A model generated the notes under the pieces. It did not search any database. It was given only the letters and a program-made list of their open reading frames with translations, and was not told the origin of the DNA. The position numbers and the translations under genes were made by a program. A stretch of 20,395 nucleotides of DNA, taken from positions 1 through 20,395 of IMG/VR virus record IMGVR_UViG_3300029787_003795. One strand, written 5' to 3'. The stretch comes from a virus. Positions 2,441-19,100 of this stretch are shown piece after piece. Positions within the stretch are counted from its first letter, which is position 1. Each line of letters begins with the position of its first letter.

Positions 2441-2762
2441 GGTAGAGCTTGGCGGTGAGTCTTACAACACGAGGCTAACCATTGATGCTTGCATCAAGGT
2501 AGAGTCCGAAATCGGAATGTCTTTGTTGAAGCTCACACAAAAGATTGCAGACAGTGACGTCAGGATTGATGAAGTCATCATAATTCTCACCCACGCATTA
2601 CGCGGCGGGGGGAACAAGGTGGAGCATAAAGACGTCAAGAAGATCGTCCAAGACGCTGGATTGACGCAAGGCATCATGGCTGTTGCAAACATCCTGACCG
2701 CCACTTTGTCTGATCCAGACCCTGATGAAGATCAAATAAAAAAGGAGGAGGCGGCAGCTTAG
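2412..2762 (+). CDS. tail assembly chaperone (GTA gp10-like, zero-frame product)
   Basis: This 116-residue protein begins TNPLRGQFEVELGGESYNTR. That opening and the following DACIKVESEIGMSL segment fit the family first described in gene transfer agents (GTA-gp10, a tail assembly chaperone domain). It is the functional counterpart of lambda gpG, which coats the tape measure before tube polymerisation. I chose ATG 2412 over the in-frame start at 2388 because AAGGAG at about 2399-2404 is well spaced and the family begins near this methionine. The last codons contain a slippery heptamer at 2738-2744, and the protein ends shortly after at TAG 2760-2762. Confidence 0.85.
   Translation: MTNPLRGQFEVELGGESYNTRLTIDACIKVESEIGMSLLKLTQKIADSDVRIDEVIIILTHALRGGGNKVEHKDVKKIVQDAGLTQGIMAVANILTATLSDPDPDEDQIKKEEAAA
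2738..2744 (+). promoter_or_regulatory. programmed -1 ribosomal frameshift heptamer A_AAA_AAG
   Basis: The zero-frame codons ATA AAA AAG cover 2736-2744, so bases 2738-2744 are exactly A AAA AAG in the X XXY YYZ phase needed for tandem -1 slippage. The same heptamer drives dnaX frameshifting in E. coli. It lies six codons before the chaperone stop. The -1 frame opened by the slip stays open for 71 codons and encodes a chaperone-like extension. A 5-bp hairpin (CGTGG 2772-2776 with CCACG 2785-2789) lies downstream, but 27 bases away, farther than usual, so its role is doubtful. Confidence 0.82.
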
Positions 2763-2959
2763 AAGAAATCCCGTGGCAGCGATACCACGAAATCTGTGTC
2801 GGGATGATAGGCATCAGCCCTATGGAGTTCTGGGAACTGTCGCCGACAGAGGTTTATTCAGCCATCAAAGGGTGGAGCGAATTTAATACATCTGAGTCCG
2901 AACCAGGGCCTATGACGCGGGATGAACTAACAGAGCTTATGGAGCTTTACCCCGACTAA
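2744..2959 (+). CDS. tail assembly chaperone frameshift extension (T-domain, -1 frame)
   Basis: This open frame (71 residues, stop TAA 2957-2959) has no usable start near its beginning; the first ATG, at 2804, would remove the conserved front. It reads GGGGSLEEIPWQRYHEIC, then GMIGISPMEFWELSPTEVYSAIKGW. The FW.LSP.E(V/L)..A core is familiar from the small protein that follows the gp10 chaperone in gene transfer agents and related phages. Slippage at 2738-2744 would join it to the upstream chaperone, giving a 182-residue fusion through a Gly-rich linker, the equivalent of lambda gpGT. It ends one base before the tape measure ATG at 2961, the normal place. The reading frame is seen; the expression mode is inferred. 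Confidence 0.8.
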   Translation, partial: GGGGSLEEIPWQRYHEICVGMIGISPMEFWELSPTEVYSAIKGWSEFNTSESEPGPMTRDELTELMELYPD

Positions 2960-2960
2960 G

Positions 2961-4835
2961 ATGGCAACAACAATTGACGAGCTACTGGTACGGATACGCG
3001 CTGACACTAAGCAGTTAGACGCAGCGCTAGGCCGCATAAAATCCCAGGTCCCACAAGCTTTACCAGAAAGGCCGGTGTCTCGCTTCGGCGCTTCATTGAA
3101 GCGACTGGGTGGTATAGCGGGCGCAGCGGCCACGGCCATCGGGGGTATCGCGGCTGTCAAAATAGCTCAAACAGGAGCTGAGTTTGAAAACCTAAGACTG
3201 TCCCTGGAGACCGTTTTTGGTGGTGCAGAAGCGGCTAACATGGCGTTCGGCAGGATCCAAAGATTTGCTGAAACCAGCCCTTTCCAAATCAAAGATCTGA
3301 CCAAGGCGTTCATTCAACTCAAAACGTCGGGCATTGAGCCAACGGAACAAATGTTGACGACGTTCTCAGATGCCGCGTCTGTCTCAACAAATGCTCTCGA
3401 CACATTTCAGTCCCTAATAAGAATAACGCAGCGATCCGCTGGCGGCGGTCTGGGCCTCGAAGAATTGGAGCAGCTCCAAGAGCGTGGATTGCCAGTGTAC
3501 GACATACTCGAAACCCGTTTGGGTAGGAGTAGGACGCAGCTTTCCGAGCTGGGTAAAACAGCCGAAGGCGCAGCGAAGATCATGGAAGAGCTGGGCAAGG
3601 GCTTGGAAGAGCGATTCGGAGGTACTACTTCCAGGAAAATGGAAACTCTTACTCAGAAGTTTTCGACGTTAGGGGATAACTTCGACAAGCTGGCTGACGC
3701 TATATTCCTTGAAGGCGGTTTTGGTTCAGCGATCAAGACCGTTGTTGACCTAATTTCTGACGCCACTAAAGAATTAGCGATCTTCGTGAAGATGATGTCG
3801 ACTGGTCAGTCCAGAGAATTCGTTGAAGCAACCACATTAGAAGGTCAACGAGCCGCAGCTCAAGCGACACTAGATGAGTTGGAAGCGCGACCGGCATCAG
3901 GAAATGCAAAAAGAGGTGTCAACGCCCTTATTTCCGCGCAGAAAACTTTAATTGATAGCATTGATGATAAAATTGAGGTTAGGGACGCCGAATTAAAACA
4001 AGATCAAACACTACAAGCCTCTCAAGATGCAGCAAAGGCAGCCGCAACAGAGGCCGCTGAAGCTGAAGACGCCGCAACAGAAGCGAGGAAGGACGCACAG
4101 AAAAGTCTTCAGAGTTTGATTGATTCTACGGAAACCCCGTTAGAAGAATACACACGAAAAATCACTGCTCTTAATGCAGAGATCGCGAGGATAGGCGGGG
4201 GTGGGGAATCGCAATTTACCGTCGAGCAACTGCAAGAAACTATCAGGCGGCTGGGCGAAGAGATGGACCCAGTCAAAAAGAAGACAGAAGAAGTTGCCGC
4301 GACATTTGCAGAAACGATGGCACCGGCAATCGCGCAGACAGTCAACGCTTTCACGACGGATTTTGTTAACGCACTGATGGAAGGTGCTAGCGCCCTGGAC
4401 AGCTTCAAAGATCTAGCAAAGAACATCGTGTCACAAATTATTTCGACCTTTTTACAAATGGCGGTTATTAATAAAATTCTTAACGCCATCTTTGGGAAAT
4501 CAGGATTCAACGTTTCTGGTTATTCACCGCTGCCAGAATTGGCGTCAGGCGGATCAGTGAGCGGTAGCCGTCCGGTATTAGTCGGTGAGCGTGGACCAGA
4601 ACTTTTCATTCCGCACAGTGCAGGAAGCATAAAGAACGCGCAGAACACAAGGGGAATGATGGGCGGTGGCGGTGTAGTCATAAATCAAAGCATCAATTTA
4701 TCTACCGGCGTACAAGCAACGGTGAGATCGGAAGTGATGCAGATGTTGCCTATGATCAACGATGTCACGAAGGCCGGAGTTTTAGAGGCGGCATCCCGTG
4801 GCGGTAAATACAGAAGGGGGTTATTAGGTGGTTAA
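2961..4835 (+). CDS. tail tape measure protein
   Basis: This 624-residue protein sets tail length and moves into the host envelope on DNA ejection. It begins MATTIDELLVRIRADTKQLD, the usual opening. A hydrophobic Gly/Ala stretch (residues 50-70) is followed by the tape-measure domain with TGAEFENLRLSLETVFGG and a FAETSPFQIKDLTKAF segment (about 70-140). An Ala/Glu-rich helical region spans about 345-440. The end is lambda-H-like: FKDLAKNIVSQIISTFLQMA, then SGSRPVLVGERGPELFIP and a Gly-rich tail. Using the general rule of about 1.5 angstrom per residue, the tail would be roughly 90-100 nm; that figure is inference. The last 8 bases overlap the next gene. Confidence 0.93.
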   Translation: MATTIDELLVRIRADTKQLDAALGRIKSQVPQALPERPVSRFGASLKRLGGIAGAAATAIGGIAAVKIAQTGAEFENLRLSLETVFGGAEAANMAFGRIQRFAETSPFQIKDLTKAFIQLKTSGIEPTEQMLTTFSDAASVSTNALDTFQSLIRITQRSAGGGLGLEELEQLQERGLPVYDILETRLGRSRTQLSELGKTAEGAAKIMEELGKGLEERFGGTTSRKMETLTQKFSTLGDNFDKLADAIFLEGGFGSAIKTVVDLISDATKELAIFVKMMSTGQSREFVEATTLEGQRAAAQATLDELEARPASGNAKRGVNALISAQKTLIDSIDDKIEVRDAELKQDQTLQASQDAAKAAATEAAEAEDAATEARKDAQKSLQSLIDSTETPLEEYTRKITALNAEIARIGGGGESQFTVEQLQETIRRLGEEMDPVKKKTEEVAATFAETMAPAIAQTVNAFTTDFVNALMEGASALDSFKDLAKNIVSQIISTFLQMAVINKILNAIFGKSGFNVSGYSPLPELASGGSVSGSRPVLVGERGPELFIPHSAGSIKNAQNTRGMMGGGGVVINQSINLSTGVQATVRSEVMQMLPMINDVTKAGVLEAASRGGKYRRGLLGG

Positions 4836-11054: not shown

Positions 11055-11524
11055 TGTTGCCCGGTGAGCCCAGGTTTTACATTATACTGACCGGGTTGGT
11101 CATATTGCTTTTGTTTAGCGGTCATCCCGCGTTTGGCGATGAGATGAGATTCAAGTTCAAGAGCCCAAGCTTCTCTGGGGTTGGGACATCTAGCCATTAC
11201 CTCACGATTGAGAATCAAACGCATACACGCGAGAAAGCTATAGACGCCAGGGAACAAGCTCTCATTGATGAGCTGGAGCGTGAGGCTAAAAATACGACAC
11301 TGGCTAGATTCCAGCGAAACCTTGAGAGTAGAATATACGCACAGATTTCGAGACAGCTTGTTGATAATCTGTTTGGTGAAAATCCTTCTACCGAGGGCCT
11401 CATTGAGCTTCTGGGAAACACAATTGAATACACATCGGACGGCGAGACCCTTACTCTCACAATCACAGACTCTGAGGGTGGCACTACGGTTATCGTTGTA
11501 CCCGTGGATAGTTTTACTTTTTAG
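11054..11524 (+). CDS. csgF: CsgF-like curli assembly protein
   Basis: This 156-residue secreted protein is a CsgF homologue. In E. coli, CsgF binds the CsgG pore from outside and guides curli nucleation. A signal peptide covers residues 1-28 (hydrophobic core IILTGLVILLLF, cleavage after AFG). The mature front reads EMRFKFKSPSFSG, which lines up with the E. coli MTFQFRNPNFGG segment that inserts into the CsgG channel. The C-terminal beta strands (GETLTLTITDSEGGTTVIVV) match the end of CsgF. I chose ATG 11054 over the TTG at 11051 because of AAAGGAAAG just upstream and the overlap with the previous stop. The protein continues 47 bases into the csgG-like gene. Confidence 0.9.
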   Translation: MLPGEPRFYIILTGLVILLLFSGHPAFGDEMRFKFKSPSFSGVGTSSHYLTIENQTHTREKAIDAREQALIDELEREAKNTTLARFQRNLESRIYAQISRQLVDNLFGENPSTEGLIELLGNTIEYTSDGETLTLTITDSEGGTTVIVVPVDSFTF

Positions 11525-12272
11525 CTGTCAAACCGACCCACGAGCCGCGATTGATGCCAGACCGGAGCCCCAGGCGATGGTGGGGGAGCTTATACTAGAA
11601 GAACTGAGAGACGTCGATACCCCCAAGATGAAGCCAGTGATTGCGGTATATGCGGCTTCTTTCATTGACCTAACAGGACAGCGTAGATCCAACAGTCAAT
11701 ATGCAGACTTCAGCACAGCGGTAACACAAGCACCTTACGCATACTTAATCAGAGCACTAAAACACGCGGGAGGTGGTGAATTTTTTACCATAGTGGAGCG
11801 GATTGGCCTGGACAATTTGACCAAAGAGCGCCAGCTAATACGGTCTACCAGGAAACAATTCAATGAAGAAACAGAGCTTATGCCGTTGAAATTCGCTGGT
11901 TTATTGATGGAAGGGGGCGTGATAGGCTATGAAAGCAATCTGAAATCAGGCGGTTTCGGTTCGAGATACTTGGGGATCGGGGCGACTAAAGAGTATCGCC
12001 AGGACACAGTAACGATCTCCTTACGTGTTGTTTCTGTCTCAACGGGGGCGGTATTGTTGGAGGTGCTGACAACTAAGTCAGTGCTTTCTGTTGCTTATAG
12101 TCAGGACATTTTCCGCTTCATTGCGGAAGGAACAAAGCTGATTGAGATTGAGAACGGGGTCGTCGAAAATGAATCTACTGGCATCGCGCTGCAGACTGCA
12201 GTTGAAACCGCTGTCCTGGAGATCATTCGCCAGGGCTACGATAATCTTTTCTGGATTCCTCGCGACTATTAG
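11478..12272 (+). CDS. csgG: CsgG-like outer-membrane secretion channel
   Basis: This is a CsgG homologue of about 264 residues (E. coli CsgG has 277), a lipoprotein that forms the nonameric outer-membrane channel for curli subunits. The leader MALRLSLYPWIVLLFSC ends in a lipobox-like LFSC with Cys17 as the acylation site; Phe at -2 is slightly atypical. Strongly conserved stretches are DFSTAVTQAPYAYLIRALK, IVERIGLDNLTKERQLIR, GYESNLKSGGFGSRYLGIGA (from about 150) and ISLRVVSVSTGAVL. The start is GTG 11478; TTG 11496 is an alternative, and the far upstream TTG at 11265 would read through the csgF gene. At the constriction, F78 aligns with E. coli F56, but D77 replaces N55 and Ser or a neighbour replaces Y51. 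Confidence 0.93.
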   Translation: MALRLSLYPWIVLLFSCQTDPRAAIDARPEPQAMVGELILEELRDVDTPKMKPVIAVYAASFIDLTGQRRSNSQYADFSTAVTQAPYAYLIRALKHAGGGEFFTIVERIGLDNLTKERQLIRSTRKQFNEETELMPLKFAGLLMEGGVIGYESNLKSGGFGSRYLGIGATKEYRQDTVTISLRVVSVSTGAVLLEVLTTKSVLSVAYSQDIFRFIAEGTKLIEIENGVVENESTGIALQTAVETAVLEIIRQGYDNLFWIPRDY

Positions 12273-12933
12273 TCAAGCCGATAACGAAATCTACGTCAAT
12301 CAGGTCGGGGCAACTTCTAATATTGATCTTGAACAACTGGGATCAAACAACGTGATAGGCGGGCTTACGGCTGTGGCTGGCTCCATGACAGCCCTTGATC
12401 TTGATGGGACTAGCCTGACCCTGGATATAAACCAGATTGGAAATAATAATATCTATCGGGGAGACATCCTGGGAAATAGCAACACGGTCTTCATGGAATT
12501 TGATGGAGATAGTAATCAGTTCACTATCCAAGTAGATCCGACCAATACTTACAGCGCCGACAGTGGTAACTATTACGTGGATGTAACCGGGTCATCCAAC
12601 TCTATGACCTTAAATGTTGGAACCGCCGCGCTCTCTGATACCTTGGACCTGGACTGGATCATCAATGGCTCGTCAAACAGCATCACGTCGAATATAGATA
12701 TAGATCAAGCGACGAACTATATGGACATCGACGGCTCAAGTAACACAATAACCTATGATGGTGATGGGTATGCGACTGGATATTTTTATCTCGACCAGAC
12801 TGGGTCGTCGAAGACTTTCAACATCCAGCAGCAGTCCACGGCGGCGCAGGATTGGCTCAAGATTATATCAAATAGCTCTAACGGTACTATGTGCGTTATT
12901 CAGTCCGATCAAGGCACTTCCACAAGCTGTTGA
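12169..12933 (+). CDS. secreted curlin-like repeat protein (putative amyloid subunit)
   Basis: This is the probable cargo of the CsgG channel. A leader of about 37 residues ends ATIIFSGFLATISQA; mature protein starts near D38. The mature part is rich in Asn, Ser, Gly, Gln and Thr. It contains eight motifs of form G-x-x-[NK]-x-hydrophobic (GSNNVI, GNNNIY, GNSNTV, GDSNQF, GSSNSM, GSSNSI, GSSNTI, GSSKTF) at nucleotides 12340, 12439, 12472, 12505, 12589, 12667, 12733 and 12802. Early repeats include VNQVG, LEQLG and INQIG, close to the curlin Q-x-G-x-x-N core; later ones drop the Gln. Two cysteines close the protein (C242, C254). ATG 12169 lies inside csgG; TTG 12202 gives a tidier signal peptide. 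The amyloid property is inferred. Confidence 0.78.
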   Translation: MNLLASRCRLQLKPLSWRSFARATIIFSGFLATISQADNEIYVNQVGATSNIDLEQLGSNNVIGGLTAVAGSMTALDLDGTSLTLDINQIGNNNIYRGDILGNSNTVFMEFDGDSNQFTIQVDPTNTYSADSGNYYVDVTGSSNSMTLNVGTAALSDTLDLDWIINGSSNSITSNIDIDQATNYMDIDGSSNTITYDGDGYATGYFYLDQTGSSKTFNIQQQSTAAQDWLKIISNSSNGTMCVIQSDQGTSTSC

Positions 12934-13963
12934 CGTTGGCTCTATTACGGACGTCAGAGGCTCTGCAAGAGTCGTTCGGCAGGACCCCTATGAAGCCAGC
13001 CTAAACTTTAATCTATTGCTCAGAGACGATCTGAGGACTTCTGACGGCAGATTAGAAGCCACCTTCCTGGATGACAGCACTGTCCGACTCACAGAGCATT
13101 CATCTCTAGTTATTGATGAGTATGTTTTTGATCCCAATCCTTCCAAATCAAAAATGGCTATTTCATTTGCCAGCGGCACGGCTCGTTTTATAACGGGCAA
13201 GCTGGGACGCATTGACAAACAAAACATCCGACTCAGAACACCCACAGCAGACATCGCGATTCGAGGGACCGATTTTACTTGCACCGTTGATGAGTTGGGG
13301 CGAAGTCTTATTATTCTTTTGCCCAAACTAGACGGCACTTCTAGCGGTGAGATCCTGGTGACGACCGGCATGGGGACGACCACGCTCAACAAGCCATACC
13401 AGGCGACCACGGTCGAAGTATACGAGAGCAGACCAACACCACCAGTCATTCTGGATCTGACCCTGGAGATCATCGACAACCTTTTGATCGTCAATCCGCC
13501 TGATCCCAACGAAGACTTCCTGACAGAAGAGGAGACCACGACAGAGATTACAGACGTCCTGGACGTAGACTTTTTGGACGTAGATTTTCTTGCAGAAGAC
13601 TTTCTTGAAGAAGAGCCCGATTTTACTTCGCTGGATGTTGATTATCTGGCGACTGAGTTTCTAGAAGATCTGTTAAATATTATTGACGCCCTCGCGATAA
13701 ACGAGGAGAAAGATCAACTCGCGCAGCTTGCAACAAGCATCGACATACGCGGCACCAGCCTGGGACAAGATCCAGTTACGCAGATTGTCACCATCATCCA
13801 GGGGCAACAGGTGTCTCTGACTCGTAATGTATCGCAGTCGGCAAGGGTAGATGTCGACGGATCTGGCGCTTATACGGTCATATTGACACAAAGCGGCGTC
13901 AGCCACACAGTATTAGTCAATGGCGGGAGCGCGTCAGTTATAAGGATTAGACAGGGATCATGA
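12755..13963 (+). CDS. secreted FecR-domain protein with acidic linker
   Basis: This protein of up to 402 residues carries a FecR domain (about 60-175): VGSITDVRGSARVV, LLLRDDLRTSDGRLEATFLD, STVRLTEHSSLVIDEYVFDP and ADIAIRGTDFTC are typical. A hydrophobic signal segment (YQIALTVLCALFSPIKA, about 38-54) precedes it, with cleavage likely near residue 58, so the domain is extracytoplasmic. A very acidic linker follows (about 245-310) with repeats of V-D-F-L/D-Y-L type, then a beta-rich C-terminus (VTIIQGQQVSLTRN, AYTVILTQSGVSHTV). The start is uncertain: ATGs at 12755-12770 give a long Arg-rich n-region overlapping the curlin-like gene by up to 179 bases; ATT 12851 would give a textbook leader. 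ATGA couples it to the cyclase. Confidence 0.87.
   Translation: MMVMGMRLDIFISTRLGRRRLSTSSSSPRRRRIGSRLYQIALTVLCALFSPIKALPQAVDVGSITDVRGSARVVRQDPYEASLNFNLLLRDDLRTSDGRLEATFLDDSTVRLTEHSSLVIDEYVFDPNPSKSKMAISFASGTARFITGKLGRIDKQNIRLRTPTADIAIRGTDFTCTVDELGRSLIILLPKLDGTSSGEILVTTGMGTTTLNKPYQATTVEVYESRPTPPVILDLTLEIIDNLLIVNPPDPNEDFLTEEETTTEITDVLDVDFLDVDFLAEDFLEEEPDFTSLDVDYLATEFLEDLLNIIDALAINEEKDQLAQLATSIDIRGTSLGQDPVTQIVTIIQGQQVSLTRNVSQSARVDVDGSGAYTVILTQSGVSHTVLVNGGSASVIRIRQGS
13556..13668 (+). repeat. short degenerate repeats coding an acidic DVDFL-type linker
   Basis: Within the FecR-domain gene the protein reads VLDVDFLDVDFLAEDFLEEE, then LDVDYLATEFLEDLL: five degenerate units built around D-x-[DE]-[FY]-L. 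The DNA repeats gacgtaga-type words at 13561-13600. It is a low-complexity, strongly negative linker between the FecR domain and the C-terminal beta region. Confidence 0.65.
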
Positions 13964-15714
13964 AGGTATTATTAGCCACAATATCTGTCCTTTTGCTTCC
14001 CTTGCTTTTCCAATGCAGTCCGGTGGAGATGGTCAAGCTTAGATGGTTTGATGCGTTCGTGGCGACGCCAGAAGAATCAGGCAATTTTGCCGTTCTTAAT
14101 ATCACAGAGGAGAACGTCGAGCAGCAGATGGGCTGGCCTTTCCCCAGGACAGAGTTAGCCAGGATGCAAGAAGACCTAATGGAAAAAGGCGCTTTAGGTG
14201 TTGGCTGGGTGATTAGTTTTCCTCAGCCTGGCAGATGGAACGGTGACAAGCTTCTAGCTTTGGTCGCTAACAACAATCCCACGGTCTTCGCGATGTTCGA
14301 GAGCCCTAACAGAGAGTTCCCGAAAACGACCGGGACCGTGATTATGGGCGATGATATCGGTGGCATTATGGCTACGGGGACCATACAAAACACGCCGAAG
14401 CTACAAATCAACGAAGGCATTGTGAGCGCTCCCCTAGATGTTGATGGATTGCTTAGACGGATGCCGCTCTTAATGAGATCGCCAGACGGGTGGATACCGT
14501 CATTCGGTGTTCAAGCGCTTAAAATGCTGACGGGTGGTGACACCTATGTGATCAAAACAAATCAGAATGGCGTTGAATCTGTGAGGATACCGGGACTCCC
14601 TGGGACTAATACGGACAGCATGGGACGCAAATGGATATCTTGGGCTGTTCCACGTGAAACGGATATGGCTGAGATGAATGTCGCTGGACGCTTTGTTTTT
14701 GTTGGGGTTACAGCTAAGGGCGTCATGCCGCAAGTATCTACCCCGGCAGGGCTTTTATATCCGCACCATATACAAGCGGCGTTTGCAGAATCTTTAATCA
14801 ATCCGAATAGCCCTCAAATCCCAGAGTTTGCTTACCTGATAGAGATCTTTTCTTTTATAGCTATGGTTGGCGTTGTATTCGCCGCAGTGACGTACTTGGG
14901 AGTCTCCCTGGGTATTGGGGCAGCCAGTGGTTTGTTCCTTATCACGGGCCTTACAGGAGCTTATATTGTCTCCCTTGGCACCTTGGTAGATGTTAGTTAC
15001 ACCCTCATCGGTCAGATTCTTGCTGGTTCTGTCGCTTTTTATTTCCGATTCAGAGAACAGTGGCGGCTACGGATGCAGATCAAAAAGCAGTTTGAAAATT
15101 ACATGGACCCGCGCCAGGTCGCTAGGTTGCAGAAGAACCCAGAGCTTTTGAAGCTTGGTGGGGAAAAGATCTATGCCACCTTTCTATTCACCGACATGAG
15201 GGGATTCACAGCGCTCTCAGAACAAGTCACGCCAGAAGAAATAACCAATATTATGAATCGCTGTCTGACTGTTCAGACAAACGCAGTTCTGGCTAATGAG
15301 GGCATGGTCGACAAGTTCATCGGTGACGCAATGATGGCAATATGGAATGCTCCTTTACCCGTTGAAGATCACGAAAAGAAAGCTTTGAAAGCCGCCGCTG
15401 ATATCGAAAGGGATATGGTTACCTTGAATCAAGAACTTGCATCTGAAGGATTGCCGAAGGTTCAAATAGGAATTGGGGTCAACAGTGGGTGGGCGGTCAT
15501 AGGCAACATGGGAAGCATGGACCGGTTTGACTTCAGCGCCATAGGAGATGCAGTCAACGTGGCCGCAAGATTGGAGTCTAATACCAAGGAGCATGGTGTT
15601 GATATTTTGGTAGGCGCAAGCACTGCTAATGAGGCTCAGGATGGGTTAACATTTCATCAACAGATAAGCGTGAAAGGCAAAAAAGAGAGGTTAACAGTTT
15701 ATACATGGGCTTAA
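13960..15714 (+). CDS. CHASE2-domain class III adenylate cyclase
   Basis: This 584-residue membrane enzyme probably makes cAMP in response to an extracytoplasmic signal. An N-terminal hydrophobic segment (3-18) leads into a CHASE2-like sensor (about 25-285), with LRWFDAF, VLNITEENVEQQMGWPFPRTEL and a GALGVGWVISF segment. Three membrane spans lie at about 290-362. The linker KQFENYMDPRQVARL joins the catalytic domain (about 400-584). Metal-binding aspartates are D412 (FTDMRGFT) and D456 (IGDAMMAIW). The adenine-selecting Lys is K452. N533 and R537 (AVNVAARLE) stabilise the transition state. S526 sits where bacterial enzymes usually have Thr or Asp. All catalytic positions are present, so it should be active. 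ATG 13960 overlaps the FecR gene stop. Confidence 0.92.
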   Translation: MKVLLATISVLLLPLLFQCSPVEMVKLRWFDAFVATPEESGNFAVLNITEENVEQQMGWPFPRTELARMQEDLMEKGALGVGWVISFPQPGRWNGDKLLALVANNNPTVFAMFESPNREFPKTTGTVIMGDDIGGIMATGTIQNTPKLQINEGIVSAPLDVDGLLRRMPLLMRSPDGWIPSFGVQALKMLTGGDTYVIKTNQNGVESVRIPGLPGTNTDSMGRKWISWAVPRETDMAEMNVAGRFVFVGVTAKGVMPQVSTPAGLLYPHHIQAAFAESLINPNSPQIPEFAYLIEIFSFIAMVGVVFAAVTYLGVSLGIGAASGLFLITGLTGAYIVSLGTLVDVSYTLIGQILAGSVAFYFRFREQWRLRMQIKKQFENYMDPRQVARLQKNPELLKLGGEKIYATFLFTDMRGFTALSEQVTPEEITNIMNRCLTVQTNAVLANEGMVDKFIGDAMMAIWNAPLPVEDHEKKALKAAADIERDMVTLNQELASEGLPKVQIGIGVNSGWAVIGNMGSMDRFDFSAIGDAVNVAARLESNTKEHGVDILVGASTANEAQDGLTFHQQISVKGKKERLTVYTWA

Positions 15715-16812: not shown

Positions 16813-17171
16813 ATCGCGTCATTGATGGCGACACCATAGACGTCAGTATTGACCTTGGGTTTGATGTATGGCTTCACAAGCAGCGTCTGAGACTTCATGG
16901 GATTGATACGCCAGAAAGTCGAACAAGGAACAAGGCAGAGAAGGCGCTCGGACTGGCAGCAAAAGAAAGACTCATAGAGCTTTGCTCAGACGAACTTAGC
17001 CTGGTATCACACGGAAAGGGAAAATATGGACGGATCTTGGCTTCAGTGTATACGGGCAAAACTGACATCTGTAAAAAACTCATCAAAGAAGGACACGCCG
17101 TGGAATATTGGGGCGGGACCAAGCTTGCAAAAATCAGAGCCGACGGAACCTGGGGGATTGAAAATGGATAG
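16788..17171 (+). CDS. staphylococcal-nuclease-like (thermonuclease) enzyme
   Basis: This 127-residue protein has the SNase fold signature. DRVIDGDTIDV carries Asp15 (equivalent to D21 of the staphylococcal enzyme), RLRLHGIDTPES carries Arg35, Asp40 and Glu43, and KYGRILASVY carries Arg82 (equivalent to R87). All catalytic residues are present, so it should cut nucleic acid with calcium. There is no signal peptide, so it acts in the cytoplasm, perhaps in DNA breakdown or processing. The GTG start at 16788 has AGAGGAG five bases upstream. The stop overlaps the lysozyme ATG at 17164. Confidence 0.9.
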   Translation: MYHYRARLDRVIDGDTIDVSIDLGFDVWLHKQRLRLHGIDTPESRTRNKAEKALGLAAKERLIELCSDELSLVSHGKGKYGRILASVYTGKTDICKKLIKEGHAVEYWGGTKLAKIRADGTWGIENG

Positions 17172-17610
17172 AGAGCTTTTGAAAACCGAATTGGTTCGAG
17201 ATGAAGGTTGTGTTTTCGAGGTCTATTTAGACAGCGAAGATTTGCCAACGTTTGGCATTGGTCATTTGTGCAAGCCCCTGGACCCAGAGTATGGATATGC
17301 AGTGGGAACCAAAGTGACACCAGAGCGCGTCAACGAATGCTTCGAGAAAGACATCGACATTGCCGTCAAAGAAGTGGCTGATCGCTATCCGTTCTTTGAT
17401 AACCTTGATGACGTGCGACAGAGGGTCTTCGTCAATATGACATTCAACCTGGGGTCAACACGATTAGGTCTTTTCAAAAAGTTCCTGGCGGCAGTAGAGG
17501 CCAAGGATTATGAAACAGCGGCAGAAGAAATGCTTGATTCTAAGTGGGCTAGACAAGTCAAGGGCCGAGCTGATCGGCTTGCTGACATGATGCGAAGTGG
17601 CGCTGTCTAA
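17164..17610 (+). CDS. T4-type lysozyme (GH24 endolysin)
   Basis: This 148-residue muramidase cleaves peptidoglycan at lysis. The catalytic triad is spaced exactly as in T4 lysozyme: Glu14 (VRDEG), Asp23 (VYLDSED) and Thr29 (LPTFGIGH), corresponding to E11, D20 and T26. The C-terminal lobe has VFVNMTFNLGSTRLGLFKKF and SKWARQVKGRADRLADMM, also as in T4. There is no signal peptide or anchor, so it needs a holin to reach the wall. I chose ATG 17164 because of GGGGGA about 9 bases upstream; the in-frame start at 17026 would lie inside the nuclease gene and precede the domain. Confidence 0.94.
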   Translation: MDRELLKTELVRDEGCVFEVYLDSEDLPTFGIGHLCKPLDPEYGYAVGTKVTPERVNECFEKDIDIAVKEVADRYPFFDNLDDVRQRVFVNMTFNLGSTRLGLFKKFLAAVEAKDYETAAEEMLDSKWARQVKGRADRLADMMRSGAV

Positions 17611-18506: not shown

Positions 18507-19100
18507 TTAGTACCCCGTCCGGTTATAGTGAGGTTTATGTCTCTTAATCAAAACTTTCTCCCAATAAGACATTCTTCCCAGTTTACATGGCAGGAAACGC
18601 ACGTGGTCAAATTTTTTGTCCTTGTGCTGATGGATTCTTTGATAAGGCGTCTTGGATTGGCCGACATAAACAACCTCACCTTCATACGACAAAAGATAAA
18701 CGGTAGGACTCACAATCGCCAACATCGGAACGAAACCTTTGCGTCGAGATCGCGCAATCTTCTGGCGTAGTTTGTTGTGTTCCCACTCTAGTTCTCTTTT
18801 CATTCGTTTGACCGACCAATCGTGCATAGCCATGTCTATCTCTTTAGCCCTAGCGCTCTCAATTTTTTGGACAGTGTGTTGCTGTTCCATGATATGGCGT
18901 TTGAGTCTTTTGATGTCTTCTTCCAGTTCTTGGATTTGTAACTCTTGCTTTGCCTCTGCTCCGAGACTGACGTGAGCTTGTTGGTTGGAGTATCCAAACA
19001 AATCTAATTTATTCATTTCGCGCTCAATCCAAAGGCCCAATCTTTTCCGATTCTCCGCTACACGAATATCGTCTCTCTGTGGAGAGAACCCGTATGGCAT
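18507..19100 (-). CDS. GIY-YIG nuclease with N-terminal coiled coil
   Basis: The last third of this 197-residue protein is a GIY-YIG domain (about 132-197): TVYLLSYEGEVVYVGQS provides the two-strand GIY/YIG core, the arginine of YQRIHQH and the glutamate of YWEKVLIKRH are the catalytic pair, and the domain closes with the Asn of HYNRTGY. The first part is helical, with a coiled coil (about 50-115; LQIQELEEDIKRLKRHIMEQ), perhaps for targeting or dimerisation. It is not flanked by intron-like sequence. The ATG at 19100 overlaps the TGA of a 57-residue gene (TGATG). It may be a free-standing homing endonuclease or a phage nuclease for host DNA; the sequence does not decide. Confidence 0.88.
   Translation of the reverse strand: MPYGFSPQRDDIRVAENRKRLGLWIEREMNKLDLFGYSNQQAHVSLGAEAKQELQIQELEEDIKRLKRHIMEQQHTVQKIESARAKEIDMAMHDWSVKRMKRELEWEHNKLRQKIARSRRKGFVPMLAIVSPTVYLLSYEGEVVYVGQSKTPYQRIHQHKDKKFDHVRFLPCKLGRMSYWEKVLIKRHKPHYNRTGY

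Follow-up and report, generated by a model that had tools for sequence, protein, structure and literature searches.

Organization of the chaperone locus

Does the chaperone gene that lies between the tail tube and tape measure genes of this virus end at its own stop codon only, or is it also read into a second, overlapping frame by a programmed -1 frameshift? We addressed this question for the window, that is, the whole stretch of DNA analysed here, a 20,395-base IMG/VR virus record (IMGVR_UViG_3300029787_003795) whose source is a marine phage. The features at issue are the following.

1785-2189, + strand: tail tube protein, PF06199 (Pfam E 9.9e-31)
2201-2440, + strand: ORF of 79 residues between the tail tube and G genes, overlapping the start of G by 29 nt
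2399-2404, + strand: Shine-Dalgarno (SD) sequence AAGGAG of the G gene, 7 nt before the ATG at 2412
2412-2762, + strand: G, tail assembly chaperone of 116 residues, PF11836 (GTA-gp10; Pfam E 9e-16)
2738-2744, + strand: A_AAA_AAG, a slippery heptamer in slip phase that all four nearest loci share unchanged
2744-2751, + strand: SD-like string GGAGGAGG directly 3' of the slip site
2744-2758, + strand: -1-frame codons for a GGGGS linker
2744-2959, + strand: T, -1-frame extension of 71 codons and a stop, PF09550 Phage_TAC_6 (Pfam E 3e-8), under purifying selection in this frame
2759-2761, + strand: TTA, at the position of the ATG or GTG that overlaps the G stop in a clade of relatives (L005 and similar loci)
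2760-2762, + strand: 0-frame stop codon TAG of G
2804-2806, + strand: internal ATG in the T frame, taken from the ORF list, not a credible start of the domain
2961-4835, + strand: tape measure protein of 624 residues, PF20155 (Pfam E 2.2e-19)

The location of G and T between the tail tube (PF06199) and tape measure (PF20155) genes is as expected of a lambda-type G/GT locus. One additional small ORF, at 2201-2440, lies between the tail tube gene and G; it gave no match in a family search, and similar ORFs occupy the same position in the relatives L003-L005. In agreement with the GTA-gp10-like chaperone named in an earlier, sequence-only reading, G scores 58.2 bits against PF11836, with a curated cut-off of 27.8; in Pfam, this family carries the title 'Phage tail tube protein, GTA-gp10' and the name Phage_TAC_11. 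Starting at 2744, the -1 frame runs without interruption to the TAA at 2957-2959, just ahead of the tape measure gene, and its 71 residues, which include the FW.LSP.E core recognized before, match PF09550 ('Phage tail assembly chaperone protein, TAC' in Pfam) with 34.4 bits, above the curated cut-off of 23.4.

Near the end of G, the codons ATA AAA AAG hold the heptamer, which the reading frame set by ATG 2412 divides as A AAA AAG, the phase claimed for it. The proposed size of the fusion is also borne out, since the 0-frame part and the 71 residues of the -1 frame give 182 residues after a slip, with the predicted junction ...QIKKGGGGSLEEIPWQR. In E. coli, few known sites are as prone to shifting as A_AAA_AAG (PMC5009743).

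We consider it very likely (probability ca. 0.9), judging from the sequence comparisons below, that positions 2412-2959 yield two tail assembly chaperones, G and G-T, through a programmed -1 slip at A_AAA_AAG. Most ribosomes would stop at the TAG at 2760 and release the 116-residue G, and a minority with Lys-tRNAs on A_AAA_AAG would slip by -1, re-pair on AAA AAA and continue in the -1 frame to the 182-residue G-T fusion as the minor product. By analogy with lambda, G and G-T would both attach to the tape measure protein, and the T part of G-T would bring in the tail tube subunit; a set ratio of G to G-T would be required, and both products would leave the finished tail. A role like that of lambda G/GT is the best reading of the locus because of the Pfam families, the likeness of the G model to other viral proteins and the gene order; the slip itself, its efficiency and the function in assembly are what we infer. 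G-T frameshifting is widespread among tailed phages (PMC5009743).

Conservation of the slip site and of the second frame

As a string, the heptamer is unremarkable, as AAAAAAG occurs seven times in the window with 5.0 occurrences expected. What exceeds chance is where it lies, in which phase, and how well it is conserved. To collect relatives, the chaperone and tape measure proteins were used as queries against viral contigs; selection was by protein domains, not by the heptamer. Both domains could be placed in 121 distinct loci, including the window itself and the annotated phage L008. T lies in the -1 frame relative to G in all 121 loci, and the junction carries an in-phase heptamer in 119 of them (43 AAAAAAA, 40 AAAAAAG and 36 GGGAAAG). 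Conservation in related phages had been suggested as a check on the frameshift, and its outcome supports the lambda G/GT-like arrangement: the -1 frame and a slippery heptamer persist in the relatives, most of which offer T no start of its own. Two loci lack such a heptamer: the sewage phage L008, in which a TTG overlaps the stop, and L059, where the site (within 3300-3370) reads GAG GTA AAG and T has no start. In L059, slippage of a single tRNA on A_AAG would be possible.

For the statistics, the 121 loci were collapsed to 45 sequence clusters. A strong heptamer in slip phase is present in 43 clusters, with 12 and 17 clusters for the two other phases, while 3.0 are expected from codon-order shuffling and 13.2 from synonymous resampling. 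The excess corresponds to P ~1e-28 for independent clusters, a value not to be taken literally because the clusters share ancestry. Mapped onto a tree built from both domains, the heptamer type switches nine times or more while the site stays slippery; what is kept is slipperiness, not one particular string.

The N-terminal part of T, between the upstream stop and the area of the internal ATG, has a dN/dS of 0.12 in the T frame in the sequence pairs compared, and values of 1.3 and 2.4 in the two other frames. We take these ratios to mean that this start-less part is coding and under purifying selection in the -1 frame. They also bear on the view that heptamer and open -1 frame are a chance product of a Lys-rich C terminus. 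AAAAAAG is indeed not rare within the window, and synonymous resampling alone produces a heptamer in 13.2 of the 45 clusters, the protein tail being rich in Lys; this is to be compared with the 43 clusters observed, with a Pfam match above cut-off in the -1 frame and with low dN/dS (0.12-0.15) in the T frame only. We rejected this view, whose probability is next to negligible, as contradicted by conservation and codon-level selection. The phase, the frame, the conservation and the selection on the start-less frame are direct observations.

Possible starts of the second frame

The -1 frame had been described as having no start of its own. Strictly, this does not hold, as an ATG at 2804 opens an ORF of 51 residues; this ATG lies inside the domain. 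A start at 2804 would drop T residues 1-20, including the invariant G20 and the near-invariant C18, and most of the predicted helix 1 (residues 11-22), and for these reasons it is not a credible start of the domain. Generally, the relatives lack a start as well: no ATG, GTG or TTG is found from the slip site to the conserved core in 88 of the 121 loci. An independent start in related phages, which had been named as an argument against frameshifting, does exist in one subclade of 22 loci, all from the A_AAA_AAA group and outside the window's own group, where an ATG or GTG overlaps the upstream stop. It goes back to a single change on the tree and is absent from most relatives, and the 22 loci still keep the heptamer.

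T could also be read as a protein of its own whose translation is coupled to that of G. Ribosomes that terminate at the TAG at 2760 would be held by GGAGGAGG, 7 nt before the TTA at 2759, and would restart in the -1 frame at this TTA or at another weak codon. TTA is, to our knowledge, not an accepted bacterial start codon, which counts against such a restart in the window. The TTA does align with the ATG or GTG that overlaps the stop in the relative clade, and GGAGG stands ahead of it in the window, L003, L009 and L004. Moreover, in several loci from alphaproteobacterial chromosomes the stop is overlapped or directly adjoined by an ATG, GTG or TTG, and ribosomes can be retained for a coupled restart by an SD shortly upstream of the end of a gene (PMC5009743). 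However, pure coupling needs no heptamer, which is kept even where a start overlaps the stop, and the majority of loci offer no start at all. We therefore regard coupling in place of frameshifting as very unlikely.

Possible stimulatory elements

The proposed -1 slip gains a possible stimulator at the level of the family. In 32 of 44 clusters an SD-like 4-mer ends 7-12 nt before the heptamer, while 17.7 clusters are expected from synonymous resampling, which was used together with codon shuffling as null model (P ~9e-8 if the clusters were independent); matched control sites gave 51 with 50.5 expected. L152 is one of the relatives that have this upstream SD. The gap peaks at 9-10 nt, which falls inside the 9-14 nt upstream reported for stimulation of -1 frameshifting by an SD (PMC5009743). 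The resampling argues that the upstream motif is selected at the synonymous level across the family, and this stimulator signal was the least expected side result of the analysis.

The same signal points to ribosomes and thus away from transcriptional slippage, in which RNA polymerase would slip on the A run and produce some mRNAs with extra or missing A's. Runs of nine A's are long enough for polymerase slippage, and many of the 43 loci with A_AAA_AAA have the heptamer inside such runs. The run of the window comprises six A's, and the 36 GGGAAAG loci have no run longer than three; it is on account of these 36 loci that transcriptional slippage was set aside, and we hold it to be highly improbable.

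For ribosomal slippage in the window itself, the stimulators look different from those of the family. The upstream SD-like motif was not found in the window or in L009, nor by alignment in L003. The sequence-only reading had placed an SD-like string directly after the slip site, and GGAGGAGG is found there, its first G being the last base of the heptamer; the window contains it a single time, where 0.35 occurrences are expected, and it is by itself unremarkable. GGAGG downstream of the slip site is shared by the window, L003, L009 and L004 with differing sequence and spacing. GGAGGAGG is a trait of this small clade; the motif of the family sits upstream. The Gly4-Ser linker likewise is present as claimed, but it is confined to the small closest clade (GGGGS in the window, L003 and L009, GQGGS in L004, other linkers elsewhere), and any role of the linker or of GGAGGAGG is putative.

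A clear 3' structure was not found after the slip site of the window (z -1.3). In the family, the mean z is -1.09 right after the slip site, -0.3 to -1.0 upstream and ~0 further downstream, a weak signal that at most hints at a 3' RNA structure and was set aside. As the clade of the window has neither an upstream SD nor a clear 3' structure, its frameshift efficiency may be low. As a long shot, the SD-like element, which relatives would keep upstream of the slip site to stimulate frameshifting, may in this clade have shifted to the other side of the site, immediately 3' of it. There it would anchor the terminating ribosome over the overlapping TAG/TTA, and reinitiation at a non-standard codon would supply some T in free form. 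If true, two recoding routes would set one chaperone ratio.

Other phages, chromosomes and the rest of the window

The second chaperone domain was said to be hidden from ordinary gene calling, and the records of HTVC202P, CRP-406 and RHph_Y3_56_1 indeed have an unannotated gap at its position. In Pelagibacter phage HTVC202P (L006, 2670-2836) and Roseobacter phage CRP-406 (L007, 2864-3002), A_AAA_AAC leads into an unannotated -1 frame before the tape measure gene, and an in-phase G_GGA_AAC lies ahead of the junction in Rhizobium phage RHph_Y3_1, Desulfofustis phage LS06-2018-MD02 and the isolate ctuI7215. Cellulophaga phage phi18:1 (L172, 1380-1830) differs from the rest, with a T-like frame that is +1 (or -2) after an A run.

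As a scan of a genome collection gave two loci only, other alphaproteobacterial chromosomal loci were gathered by a Pfam search. In most of these chromosomal loci T is again offset by -1 from G. At the junctions there are starts that overlap or abut the stop, putative C_CCU_UUY or G_GGA_AAR sites and, in a few cases, different arrangements. In six loci (L176, L178, L179, L181, L187 and L191), C_CCU_UUN stands in slip phase at the codons of an N-terminal Pro-Phe motif of T. Some of the C_CCU_UUN loci have no upstream start; the slip site is putative, and the coding of the Pro-Phe motif is an alternative explanation for it.

Elsewhere in the window, positions 11265-15714 (+ strand) hold a host-like cassette with CsgG (PF03783, E 4.5e-46), a curlin-like repeat protein (12142-12933) called by eye and without a Pfam match, a FecR-domain protein (12755-13963) and a protein with CHASE2 and adenylate/guanylate cyclase domains (13960-15714). 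CsgG and curli genes have been reported in pelagiphages (PMC9599517, PMC7029224, PMC9004378). A phage lysozyme (PF00959) is encoded at 17026-17610 (+ strand), and a GIY-YIG-like protein, slightly below the Pfam cut-off, at 18507-19100 (- strand).

Comparison with known systems

The lambda G/GT-type frameshift as such is already known; the loci compared here indicate its conservation across a large, mostly uncultured phage family with GTA-gp10-type chaperones, to which they extend it. The frameshift would account for the absence of the second chaperone from some database records. The 121 sites, which vary in slip site, upstream SD and start codon, form a comparative set for the G to G-T ratio, and they bear on the origin of two separate chaperone genes in GTA-like elements.

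Searches of the PDB for the folds of the G and T models gave no match. When the sequences of solved structures were searched, G matched part of one chain (C3HR3_9r_shift4, E 2e-6) with no single significant stretch, and T matched nothing below E 0.29. By fold, the G model is similar to predicted proteins of viruses, and some of these carry the annotation of tail assembly chaperones. Among the papers searched, none mentioned the Pfam accessions or names of the PF11836 and PF09550 domains.

The tail frameshift of lambda G/GT is described as conserved in dsDNA phages (Levin 1993 and Xu 2004, as cited in PMC5009743), and a survey of Rhodobacter phages calls frameshifting usual in tail assembly chaperone genes (PMC8601537). 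The present loci differ from lambda in the protein families, PF11836 and PF09550, and in the slip sites, which are A_AAA_AAG, A_AAA_AAA or G_GGA_AAG. RcGTA is described with two tail chaperone genes, g10 and g10.5 (PMC11409702). As in g10, the first domain here carries pfam11836, and the second stands in place of tail chaperone 2; unlike RcGTA as described, the virus has one frameshifted gene instead of two genes. With E. coli dnaX, the window shares the heptamer A_AAA_AAG, and those of its relatives that have the upstream SD-like motif show a similar spacing, whereas the window and its nearest kin have neither an upstream SD nor a clear 3' stem-loop. Finally, the predicted frameshift product is an extension here, while that of dnaX is a truncation.
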